Of a stretch of 49,298 nucleotides of DNA, positions 26,506-28,867 are shown piece by piece. The stretch comes from Candidatus Parcubacteria bacterium (lineage in GTDB: Bacteria > Patescibacteriota > Patescibacteriia > PEXW01). Numbering within the stretch: the first letter of the stretch is position 1; every line of letters starts with the position of its first letter. The notes below the pieces were generated by a model that worked only from the letters and a program-made list of their open reading frames with translations, was not told where the DNA came from and ran no database searches. Location: positions 1 through 49,298 of the forward strand of contig QZJU01000016.1 in the NCBI GenBank assembly GCA_003597955.1. The letters are read 5' to 3'. The translations under genes and the position numbers were made by a program.

Positions 26506-26611
26506 AAGCATCCCTTTCTATTTTAAATTTAGCAGTTTTTAGTTTTATAAGAAATCTTTTGCAAATATTGGCGAGGTCCACAAAAGATTGGCCAGAACTT
26601 TTATTGTGTCG

Positions 26612-26617
26612 TATAAT
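26612..26617 (+). promoter_or_regulatory. -10 box of a leaderless promoter (xer)
   Basis: TATAAT at 26612-26617 ends 7 nt before the ATG at 26625, so transcription should start at or within a base or two of the start codon. A weak -35 (TTGGCC) lies 18 nt upstream. Confidence 0.6.
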
Positions 26618-26624
26618 GTCTCCG

Positions 26625-27566
26625 ATGCCTAATTCTCTTACCAAATTTTTAAATGATTTCCTGGCTTATTTGGAGATTGAAAAAAATGTCTCACCCTTGA
26701 CCGTGAAGAATTACGACTTTTACCTCAAGCGTTTTATTGCCTGGGGGAAATTAAAATCACCAAACGAAATTACGGCGGAAAAGGTCAGGCAATATCGGTT
26801 GTTTTTAAATCGGCTGGTAAACAAACAAAAAGAAGCCTTGAAAGCTTCCACCCGGAATTACCACTTAATTGCTTTGCGAGCTTTTTTAAAATATCTGGCT
26901 AAGCGGGATGTGAGCGCCCTGGCGCCGGAAAAAGTGGAGCTGGCCAAGCAGGCCGAAAGGCAGGTAAATTTTTTGGACGGTGCGGATTTGGAAAGGTTTT
27001 TGGAAGCGCCCCTGAAAACCCAGGAACCGGGCTTGGTTAAAATGCGGGATAAGGCGATTTTGGAAATGCTTTTTTCTACCGGCTTGCGGGTTTCCGAACT
27101 GGCGAATTTAAAAAAAGAAAATGTGAACCTACAAAAGGAGGAATTCACCGCCCGCGGCAAGGGCGGAAAACTGCGGGTCGTTTTTCTTTCGCAGGCCGCC
27201 CGGCGCTGGCTGGGTGAATATCTGGAAAATCGTTCAGATCAGGAGCCTTGGCTTTTTTTAAGACATGATCGGGCAGTAAAAAAATCGGCAGAAAATCTTA
27301 AGCCGCTTACGCCGCGCTCGGTTCAGAGGCTGGTGCAATTTTACGCCAAAGCCGCGGGCATAACCAAAAGGGTCACCCCGCACACCCTAAGGCATTCTTA
27401 CGCCACAGATCTGCTTATGAACGGGGCGGACATTCGTTCGGTCCAATCCATGCTGGGCCACGCATCCATCACCACCACGCAGATTTACACCCATGTCACC
27501 AATCAGCAATTGCGGGAAGTTTACAAAGCCTTTCACGCCCGCCGGAGAAAAAACAAAGAGGATTGA
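26625..27566 (+). CDS. xer: tyrosine recombinase, XerC/XerD family
   Basis: 313 residues from ATG 26625; earlier in-frame starts lie upstream of or inside the -10 box. The N-terminal SAM-like core-binding domain (about 5-90) is followed by the catalytic domain with Arg in STGLRVSELANLK, HTLRHSYATDLL (His and Arg), LGHASITTT (His) and the nucleophile Tyr in QIYTHV. In CPR genomes a single Xer usually resolves chromosome dimers. It stands just upstream of a rearranged tRNA island, so it could also act on tRNA-located sites, though no att site was identified. Confidence 0.93.
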   Translation: MPNSLTKFLNDFLAYLEIEKNVSPLTVKNYDFYLKRFIAWGKLKSPNEITAEKVRQYRLFLNRLVNKQKEALKASTRNYHLIALRAFLKYLAKRDVSALAPEKVELAKQAERQVNFLDGADLERFLEAPLKTQEPGLVKMRDKAILEMLFSTGLRVSELANLKKENVNLQKEEFTARGKGGKLRVVFLSQAARRWLGEYLENRSDQEPWLFLRHDRAVKKSAENLKPLTPRSVQRLVQFYAKAAGITKRVTPHTLRHSYATDLLMNGADIRSVQSMLGHASITTTQIYTHVTNQQLREVYKAFHARRRKNKED

Positions 27567-27692
27567 CCTAAATTTAAGAATTAATTATTATTCGAAGCCG
27601 GCTTAAAAATTTGTCCCTACAGTCCCCCGCCATTTGGCGGGGCAAGCAATAATGATAAATGGTGAGAGCCTTCCCCGCCCGACTCGCCTGAC

Positions 27693-27767
27693 GCCCTTAT
27701 AGCTCAATGGATAGAGCATCGGCCTTCTAAGCCGAGGATGCAGGTTCGATTCCTGCTGAGGGTACCA
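27693..27767 (+). tRNA. tRNA-Arg(UCU)
   Basis: 75 nt with CCA encoded. The anticodon loop CTTCTAA gives UCU, the T-loop is TTCGATT, and the acceptor GCCCTTA pairs with TGAGGGT. Flanking DNA is self-complementary (GACTCG at 27681-27686 with CGAGTC at 27770-27775; CCGCC with GGCGG further out), extending a stem beyond the tRNA, as seen around the inner tRNA-Ala. Confidence 0.95.
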
Positions 27768-27808
27768 GACGAGTCTGGCGAGGCGGAAATTGCTCTCGGG
27801 GTTTTTCG

Positions 27809-27885
<77 letters not shown>

Positions 27886-27892
27886 TAAACAA

Positions 27893-28135
27893 ATGTATTA
27901 CGTATACTTTTTACAAAGCCAAAAAGATAACGGTTATTATATAGGCGTAACCTCTAATCCGCGAAAGCGTCTTCAAGAACATAACAATGGCTTGTCGAAG
28001 TCTACAAGATTTCGAAAACCCTGGGTTTTAGTCAGAACCGAACCTTACGAAGATATAAAATCCGCTTACCGTCGAGAGCGTTTCTTAAAAGCGAAAAAGA
28101 GCAGAATAATAATTGAAAAGATAATTGAAAGTTAG
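27893..28135 (+). CDS. GIY-YIG endonuclease-like protein (UPF0213 type)
   Basis: 80 residues, start ATG at 27893 only 8 nt after the tRNA-Val CCA end, without a Shine-Dalgarno. The GIY-YIG core is clear: YYVYFLQSQKDNGYYIGVTSNPRKRLQEHNNG, with the catalytic Arg and His, and the C-terminal Glu in YRRERFLKAKKSR. Single-domain members are widespread and their DNA target is unknown. It lies between an intact and a broken tRNA-Val of the same anticodon, as a mobile endonuclease might. Translation probably starts near the 5' end created by tRNA processing. Confidence 0.88.
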   Translation: MYYVYFLQSQKDNGYYIGVTSNPRKRLQEHNNGLSKSTRFRKPWVLVRTEPYEDIKSAYRRERFLKAKKSRIIIEKIIES

Positions 28136-28193
28136 TCCCGATGTTCGCAAAGCGAAATCGGGATCCCGACATCACAGAAAGCGATCGTCGGGA
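28136..28193. repeat. tandem pair of TCCCGA palindromes
   Basis: Hairpin 1: TCCCGAT (28136-28142) with ATCGGGA (28157-28163) and an inner TTCGC/GCGAA. Hairpin 2: TCCCGAC (28164-28170) with GTCGGGA (28187-28193). They begin at the base after the GIY-YIG stop and end exactly where a tRNA-Val copy begins without its 5' acceptor strand, so they probably replaced it. Confidence 0.75.
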
Positions 28194-28260
28194 CTCAGCT
28201 GGTTAGAGCGTCTCGTTTACACCGAGAAGGTCGGGGGTTCAAGTCCCTCAGCATCCACCA
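28194..28260 (+). pseudogene. 5'-truncated tRNA-Val(UAC)
   Basis: From CTCAGCTGG onward the sequence is a good tRNA-Val: anticodon arm TCTCG-TTTACAC-CGAGA, T-arm GGGGG-TTCAAGT-CCCTC and the 3' acceptor strand GCATCC with ACCA. The 5' acceptor strand (expected GGATGC..) is missing and replaced by the palindromic repeat pair. It cannot form an acceptor stem and is likely inactive. Confidence 0.8.
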
Positions 28261-28383: not shown

Positions 28384-28656
28384 ATGAAATACCTCGTTGG
28401 TATATTAATGATCGGCATTGGGTTCGTGATAATTTGGAAATCCGATTGGCTCATGAATAATATGGGTCGGATCGAATGGGCCGAAGCCCATTTAGGTTCG
28501 GATGGCGGCACGCGGCTTTTTTACAAACTCGTCGGCATTGTCATAATTATCGCCGCGTTTCTGTTGATGAGCGGCGGTTTGGCTACGGGTGCAAAGAAGA
28601 TTTTTTCTCCCAGCGGGCCCACTCAGCTGGAAGAAACTCAAAGCGAGAGCTTATGA
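28384..28656 (+). CDS. small membrane protein with two helices
   Basis: 90 residues. An N-terminal helix (MKYLVGILMIGIGFVIIW) and a second helix (LVGIVIIIAAFLLMSGG) are separated by a polar loop MGRIEWAEAHLGSDGGTRLFYK; the C-terminus is polar. Proteins of this layout are common in CPR genomes, but no function is known. An AT-rich TTATTATAG stands just before the start. It sits between the truncated tRNA-Val and the nested tRNA-Ala genes. Confidence 0.7.
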   Translation: MKYLVGILMIGIGFVIIWKSDWLMNNMGRIEWAEAHLGSDGGTRLFYKLVGIVIIIAAFLLMSGGLATGAKKIFSPSGPTQLEETQSESL

Positions 28657-28664
28657 CCATTCAA

Positions 28665-28867
28665 GGGCCGTTAGTTCATCTGGTAGAACGCCACATTTGT
28701 TCCGACGTTAAAAATTGCGAATCCTCGATAACTTTGGTGGGCCCTTAGCTCATTTGGTAGAGCGCCGCGTTTGCAACGCGGAGGTGACCGGTTCGAGCCC
28801 GGTAGGGTCCACCAAAGTTATCGGGACAATGTGGAGGTAGCCGGTTCGAGCCCGGTAGGGTCCACCA
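28665..28867 (+). tRNA. interrupted tRNA-Ala(UGC), split in the anticodon loop
   Basis: The 5' half is 28665-28699 (acceptor GGGCCGT, D-arm GTTC/GAAC, CCACA then TTTG). The 3' half is 28827-28867 (CAA, TGTGG, T-arm, AGGGTCC, ACCA). Joined, they make a 76-nt tRNA with anticodon stem CCACA/TGTGG and loop TTTGCAA (UGC); the only flaw is one G-G mismatch in the acceptor. The 127-nt insertion (28700-28826) sits between positions 35 and 36 and contains a second complete tRNA-Ala. Whether the outer tRNA is spliced or dead is unknown. Confidence 0.8.
28739..28814 (+). tRNA. tRNA-Ala(UGC), complete, inside the interrupted tRNA-Ala
   Basis: 76 nt. Acceptor GGGCCCT pairs with AGGGTCC, the anticodon arm is CCGCG-TTTGCAA-CGCGG (UGC), the T-arm is ACCGG-TTCGAGC-CCGGT, and ACCA is encoded. 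The 13 nt before it (CGATAACTTTGGT, 28726-28738) pair perfectly with the 13 nt ending at 28823, which include its own ACCA. In the precursor the acceptor stem is thus extended to 20 bp. Confidence 0.95.

Follow-up and report, generated by a model that had tools for sequence, protein, structure and literature searches.

The nearest analogue of the locus analyzed here is found in fungal mitochondria, where mobile ORFs replace the C-terminus of a gene. In the passages of PMC3630166 that deal with them, these ORFs encode a homing endonuclease (HEG) and enter atp6 and other genes together with a foreign C-terminus, the native one being displaced, and gene hybrids of this kind are given for atp6 of Allomyces macrogynus and for atp6, atp9, cox2 and nad3 of Glomus. 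As in our case an endonuclease element brings a replacement for the part that it disrupts and the native part is left adjoining, but the fungal targets described there are protein-coding mitochondrial genes of which the C-terminal part only is exchanged, whereas here a complete gene within a hairpin has entered the middle of the anticodon loop, and this in bacterial tRNA genes of many isoacceptors. SegB of the T-even phages T4 and T6 is a free-standing GIY-YIG enzyme encoded next to tRNA genes, and it cuts in tRNA genes (PMC2988022, PMC13096335). Like the elements described below it stands beside tRNAs and drives the inheritance or amplification of tRNA segments, but it belongs to a phage and lies freely between tRNA genes, and the parts of these accounts that concern it describe neither a split tRNA nor a replacement embedded in a hairpin. 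From the rRNA genes of CPR bacteria, GIY-YIG-encoding inserts have been described that are unlike group I or II introns and, in the judgement of the authors, do not spread by homing; inserts in these genes mainly occupy the top or the base of stem-loops (PMC11270868). The GIY-YIG inserts come from the same phylum as our locus and likewise encode GIY-YIG proteins, but they reside in rRNA, and the sections of PMC11270868 devoted to them make no mention of a replacement gene. Group I introns with HEGs in the anticodon loops of bacterial tRNAs share the same loop and the logic of homing with the present insert, which however replaces the gene, was not seen to splice and yielded no group I RNA. Islands and phages with integration sites in tRNA genes also reconstitute the target tRNA gene, but they use integrases and leave direct repeats, neither of which is present here. 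Whole replacement tRNAs nested in tRNA genes are absent from the relevant parts of PMC3630166, PMC2988022, PMC13096335 and PMC11270868, and searches of open-licence full texts revealed no earlier description of tRNA genes nested in one another or of GIY-YIG/tRNA elements for Patescibacteria.

The window, i.e. the whole stretch of DNA analyzed, comprises 49,298 nt (contig QZJU01000016.1) of a Candidatus Parcubacteria genome (GCA_003597955.1, 990 kb, in the following G000) for which 45 tRNAs were obtained as Rfam matches. Direct reading revealed a split tRNA-Ala(UGC) enclosing a complete tRNA-Ala(UGC), the break lying between nt 35 and 36 of the outer gene (Table 1). When joined, the outer halves give 76 nt that ARAGORN calls as tRNA-Ala(tgc), nt 35 being the last one before the junction; the intron mode of the program mixed inner and outer halves and its result was left out. 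The inner gene was found by Rfam with 65.1 bits as well as by ARAGORN and is the only intact tRNA-Ala(UGC) found in G000. The insert of 127 nt (28700–28826) consists of a 39-nt spacer (28700–28738), this tRNA and another 12 nt. A perfect 13-bp flanking repeat (28726–28738/28811–28823) lengthens the inner acceptor stem to 20 bp and, past the single bulged T28725, the pairing of the arms extends to TCC/GGA; as RNA the inner unit is predicted to fold into a cloverleaf on one continuous 20-bp stem (−57.6 kcal/mol, z = −7.4). A first-pass annotation made from the letters alone had already proposed the nesting in the anticodon loop, the 76-nt outer tRNA and the 127-nt insertion with its intact 76-nt tRNA, repeat and 20-bp stem, and all of this was borne out. 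It had also noted compensating pairs in the anticodon stem of the outer tRNA. The D, anticodon and T stems of this tRNA are fully paired, but the acceptor stem contains a mismatch, G6:G67, that had gone unmentioned. Its suggestion that the long stem holds the insert together as one domain fits as well, but the evidence favours a role of the arms in delimiting a mobile DNA unit over one as splicing signals. Its remark that the insert does not resemble a group I intron agrees with our searches, in which no group I core or other intron family matched around the insert at the Rfam gathering threshold or E ≤ 1, and no RNA family other than tRNA reached the Rfam threshold within the window. By direct reading the junctions carry no target duplication or direct repeats; the insertion is precise (35|36), its site is common to the relatives, and terminal inverted repeats as in MITE/REP palindromes are present. 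A replacement gene lies within the insert of the window and the displaced native parts lie outside of it.

Table 1: Features of the nested tRNA-Ala locus and of its neighbourhood within the window.
Feature	Position	Strand	Basis or remark
Probable third nested unit, tRNA-Arg(UCU) at 27693–27767	27674–27786	+	inferred from direct reading
Intact tRNA-Val(UAC)	27809–27885	+	second tRNA of the window with a displaced copy
80-aa GIY-YIG endonuclease ORF, directly 3' of tRNA-Val	27893–28135	+	sequence comparison
Two abutting hairpins, TCCCGAT..ATCGGGA and TCCCGAC..GTCGGGA, end of Val element	28136–28193	+	direct reading
Displaced tRNA-Val(UAC) fragment, about nt 11–76, without 5' end	28194–28260	+	Rfam searches
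Small membrane-protein-like ORF	28384–28656	+	marks the tRNA-Val, ORF, tRNA-Ala locus in many genomes with and without insert
Outer tRNA-Ala(UGC), 5' half, nt 1–35 (35 nt)	28665–28699	+	starts GGGCCG, ends CCACATTTG
Putative endonuclease-hairpin remnant TTCCGACGTTAAAAATTGCGAA, HEG presumably deleted	28700–28721	+	homology inferred from orthologues
Left arm of tRNA hairpin, TCC-t-CGATAACTTTGGT	28722–28738	+	T28725 bulged
Inner complete replacement tRNA-Ala(UGC), CCA encoded	28739–28814	+	ARAGORN, Rfam
Right arm AAGTTATCGGGA	28815–28826	+	pairs with left arm together with ACCA 28811–28814; element end ATCGGGA
Outer tRNA-Ala(UGC), 3' half, nt 36–76, displaced (41 nt)	28827–28867	+	starts CAATGTGG, ends ACCA

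A comparison with related genomes had been recommended along with the first-pass annotation. In several other families of the class this insert recurs at the identical site of the orthologous tRNA-Val, ORF, tRNA-Ala locus, there still encoding a GIY-YIG endonuclease of about 80 aa, and uninterrupted alleles exist as well. The ORF lies inside the insert, TTTG^TCCCGAT..TCGGGA^CA, in the genomes G036, G199, G221 and G160, and it is also present at this locus in G093, where the contig end cuts the locus. In G036 the tRNA-Val(UAC) and the membrane ORF are followed by the Ala 5' half with ..CGCATTTG^TCCCGATGCGCA, the 80-aa GIY-YIG ORF and then TGCGCATCGTGGA-TCCGCGATAAAATCAGGT-[tRNA-Ala]-TGATTTTATCGGGA^CACTGCGG. 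An intact endonuclease hairpin, TCCCGATTTAT - GIY-YIG - ATAAATCGaGGA, was found in seven genomes (G036, G199, G221, G342, G206, G160 and G020), and the consensus of the Ala elements reads TTTG^TCCCGATTTAT..GIY-YIG..ATAAATCGaGGA|TCCtCGATAnnnnGGT-[tRNA-Ala]-ACCnnnnTATCGGGA^CAA, which corresponds to the layout TTTG^TCCCGAT - GIY-YIG - ATCGaGGA|TCCtCGAT..-[tRNA-Ala]-..ATCGGGA^CAA. The insert of the window has no endonuclease ORF and has kept both ends and the second hairpin, the one with the tRNA; its spacer TTCCGACGTTAAAAATTGCGAATCCTCGATAACTTTGGT retains AAATTGCGAATCCTCGATA of the orthologous region, and none of 20000 shuffles matched the Ala consensus as well. As the spacer keeps these parts and matches the consensus without an ORF, we read the insert as the same element minus its endonuclease gene, the former presence of which is suggested by the orthologues and the remnant of about 20 nt.

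The residues of the GIY-YIG motif are conserved in the endonuclease, and its relatives in the PDB are 1zg2 and 1mk0, the I-TevI domain. Using the G036 protein as query, homologues were detected in 293 of the 381 genomes of the class. Among the 30 best homologue loci, 22 have a tRNA on the same strand 3' of the ORF, in 21 cases at a distance of ≤55 nt, and all 22 have, on the other side of the ORF, i.e. upstream, a 5' half of that very tRNA, which scores above 30 shuffles and stops at nt 34/35 in 12 of them. In the Ala cases of these 30 loci the outer 3' half is present, too (7/7), beginning at nt 36 or ≤2 bases away, and in the Ala elements with flanks on both sides the 5' side ends at nt 35 (7/7). 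All homologues with ≥59% identity are located at tRNA-Ala loci or beside tRNA-Ala remnants, the latter at a contig end or where the tRNA has been lost. The units do not all share one architecture, as several elements for Tyr, Thr, Ser and Glu, which usually show the order 5' half, HEG and tRNA, are devoid of an outer 3' half; these may bring in the HEG along with a 5' half and make use of the resident 3' half to reconstitute the tRNA. Phage records contained one weak homologue. A search of viral contigs for the central palindrome of the element gave 25 matches, none of them beside a tRNA, and these were judged to be unrelated.

We conclude that the locus is very probably the scar of a tRNA-replacing homing element, which splits its target tRNA and supplies a full replacement. 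Such a scar had been one of the options in the first-pass annotation and is strongly supported by the GIY-YIG homing-type endonuclease gene in the insert of the relatives; the further option of a dead outer copy is probably also true, namely as a consequence of the insertion. Cleavage and mobility, as well as transfer of the element between lineages, are presumed. The full element consists of the GIY-YIG gene in a hairpin TCCCGAT..ATCGaGGA and of a second hairpin, TCCtCGAT..ATCGGGA, tipped by a complete tRNA-Ala, and it lies mid anticodon loop between nt 35 and 36 of a tRNA-Ala without target duplication. In the proposed model the endonuclease would cut a tRNA-Ala gene that is still uninterrupted, in the DNA of its anticodon arm, and the break would be repaired by copying the element-bearing allele, which we propose because of the exact site, the missing target duplication and the relatedness of the HEGs following the isoacceptor. 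The resident tRNA would thereby be split and lost and the tRNA of the element would take over, presumably after RNase P, alone or together with RNase III, has released it from the long stem; as the resident is replaced, insertion into an essential single-copy gene would be tolerated. Subsequently, both the endonuclease gene and the outer halves that have been displaced would decay. In the window the endonuclease would already have been lost in this last step, whereas the outer halves are still nearly intact. Speaking against homing, the inner tRNA contains an intact target sequence, its 5' half even being the same as the outer one in G036 and G199, so that the element would need some way of escaping its own enzyme.

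The covariation of the arms of the tRNA hairpin also supports this reading. In eight Ala elements the arm sequences vary between genomes and yet pair in 133/133 cells, a figure that follows partly from choosing the sequences as arms, which does not apply to the changes on both sides seen in 11 of 17 pairs (0/500 shuffles as good); sliding the partner arm as a control lowered the pairing to 35–52%. For the alignment a GAAA joining the arms was added artificially and extra unpaired bases by the tRNA in G221, G206 and G160 were omitted. The one-base bulge after TCC is common to all eight elements. Extended stems are not restricted to tRNA-Ala(UGC): among the 39 tRNAs of G000 with full flanks, 9 have a leader and a trailer whose pairing prolongs the acceptor stem (score ≥8), compared to 0.36% of cross pairs. 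At a score ≥10 these numbers are 5/39 own pairs and 0/1382 cross pairs between different tRNAs, which excludes chance, and pieces of the same tRNA flank 10/39 tRNAs at a score ≥15 vs 4.6%. By eye Ser(UGA), Tyr, Ala(GGC), Pro(GGG), Pro(UGG) and Phe are clear cases. In the extended-stem tRNAs nt 73 pairs with −1. For nested Pro, Ser and Tyr tRNAs of G000 (L033, L054, L059, L064) the palindromic arm crosses the 3' end, giving CCC instead of an encoded CCA, so that CCA addition would have to come afterwards.

Small hairpins were also observed in the middle of the T-loop or anticodon loop of degenerate copies of Val-GAC, Phe, Ala-GGC, Tyr and Ser tRNAs (L033 on contig C6 of G000, L044, L059, L064), so that hairpins are located in the tips of other hairpins. 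In another locus (L339, G274) an Ala-type endonuclease adjoins tRNA-hairpin arms that hold no tRNA, with an intact tRNA-Ala(CGC) upstream, possibly an empty-hairpin derivative. As this hairpin, next to its GIY-YIG gene, lacks the tRNA, plain hairpins can be deletion products.

To find nested tRNAs independent of their structure we searched for two T-loops closer to each other than two tandem tRNAs permit. About 80 such sites were found in 54 of the 381 genomes of the class, and the reversed pattern as control gave 1 match. Inner and joined outer tRNA agree in their amino acid at 24 loci, and in 18 of these the outer tRNA is split at nt 34–37, including eight with the exact 35|36 split. Among the named genomes with such sites are Kaiserbacteria, Kerfeldbacteria, Wolfebacteria, Sungbacteria, Nomurabacteria, Doudnabacteria, Curtissbacteria and Gottesmanbacteria. 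In a wider scan of contigs many T-loop matches from non-Patescibacteria were not nested, and only cases with both halves or long arms were counted. Nested-looking tRNA-Arg(CCU) and tRNA-Leu(UAG) were seen in MAGs of Chitinophagaceae (L244) and Omnitrophota (L243), respectively, which may be mis-binned. At a tRNA-Arg(UCU) locus of G040 (L184/L169, C1:273500–274500) the 3' half and the right arm are present twice in tandem, being either a double shell or a tandem duplication.

An enrichment next to tRNAs was also observed for the GIY-YIG genes. From 54 GIY-YIG ORFs in six genomes, counted by hand after exclusion of UvrC-size ORFs, at least 20 are located ≤100 bp from a tRNA, whereas 1.1 would be expected (p about 5e-20), and G000 taken by itself has 4 of 12 (p = 1.8e-4). 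The tree of 42 GIY-YIG proteins follows the tRNA isoacceptor: the isoacceptor label changes 13 times in this tree, in which many inner branches are weak, compared to a minimum of 16 in 500 shuffled sets (0/500 as low).

Uninterrupted tRNA-Ala genes at the orthologous locus are found in G002 of the same family, in G024, G027, G044 and others, and the inner tRNA-Ala of the window is identical (76/76) to those of G024 and G027. Inner and outer tRNA-Ala of the window are identical in 66/76 positions and several of the 10 differences are compensated stem changes, suggesting that both diverged as working tRNAs and that the inner one need not be a copy of the outer one. The outer 3' end equals the inner sequence from nt 50 to the end, and the G6:G67 mismatch may result from a conversion of this outer 3' end. 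These data bear on a rather improbable alternative, a palindrome-driven local duplication in which template switching copies a tRNA into its own anticodon loop and the GIY-YIG genes are passengers. It would agree with the like hairpins in the loops of degenerate tRNA copies that contain neither a tRNA nor a HEG, and with the lack of a HEG in most of the nested units. Moreover, the left arm and the 5' half are duplicated exactly in G036, indicating local recombination in addition to homing. However, the relatedness of the HEGs tracks the isoacceptor, the element ends are identical between families and the compensated changes in the window identify its inner tRNA as no fresh copy.

Much less probable is a tRNA-bearing intron, also among the initial proposals, with the insert being excised and the outer halves being ligated to a second functional tRNA-Ala. 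The nearly intact outer halves with their compensating anticodon- and D-stem pairs and the position in the anticodon loop, as in known tRNA introns, would be in line with it, but in addition to the missing Rfam intron match neither a tRNA-splicing endonuclease (PF01974) nor RtcB (PF01139) was found in G000, with positive controls, the outer acceptor stem has its mismatch, G036 and G199 have a truncated or broken outer 3' half, and the inner tRNA already supplies the anticodon. We regard the scar of a tyrosine-recombinase island using the anticodon arm as attB as just as improbable: anticodon arms are known attachment sites and an integrase-family gene is present at 26559–27566, but this gene lies 1.1 kb outside of the 127-nt insert, none of the Ala-element inserts compared contains an integrase and the junctions show no attL/attR repeats. 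Finally, an assembly error, which the first-pass annotation had considered, or chance has a negligible probability even though the draft genome consists of 21 contigs, one of which is the window in its entirety, as the same architecture is found in many independent genomes (the about 80 sites in 54 genomes and those in the named Kaiserbacteria, Kerfeldbacteria, Wolfebacteria, Sungbacteria and others).

With the tRNA-replacing homing element as the preferred reading of the locus, a selfish element can inhabit an essential single-copy RNA gene without self-splicing by carrying the whole gene. As a broader and tentative idea, which may well prove wrong, the tRNA genes of Patescibacteria might be continually replaced from inside by hairpin-shaped selfish units (GIY-YIG plus tRNA hairpin) that target the tips of DNA hairpins, each round leaving the old tRNA behind as a buried shell; some of the tRNAs of a genome would then be element-borne and plain hairpins in T-loops or anticodon loops would be deletion derivatives. 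The homing element as such would help to explain the widespread small GIY-YIG genes of Patescibacteria and the tRNA pseudo-halves around working tRNAs, and it possibly accounts for the unexplained short or GIY-YIG-bearing inserts in CPR rRNA. The tRNA sequences of these genomes may be horizontally replaced, which would affect annotation and tRNA-based inference, and homing on tRNA genes becomes directly testable.

Two more units are located upstream of the tRNA-Ala in the window (Table 1). The cluster of tRNA-Val, GIY-YIG ORF and displaced tRNA-Val (27809–28260) is a mirror form of the element. The nested-looking tRNA-Arg(UCU) has the arms CCCGCCCGACTCGCCTGAC/GACGAGTCTGGCGAGGCGG, also given as CCCGCCCGACTCGCC/GGCGAGGCGG, and is flanked by remnants of an outer anticodon arm, GAGAGCCTTC (27664–27673) and AAATTGCTCTC (27787–27797; GCTCTC). 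Its left-arm sequence recurs upstream of an outer Arg half in G044 (L168) and flanking a nested Arg in G265 (L170), and an arm similar to it was observed in Wolfebacteria (L250).
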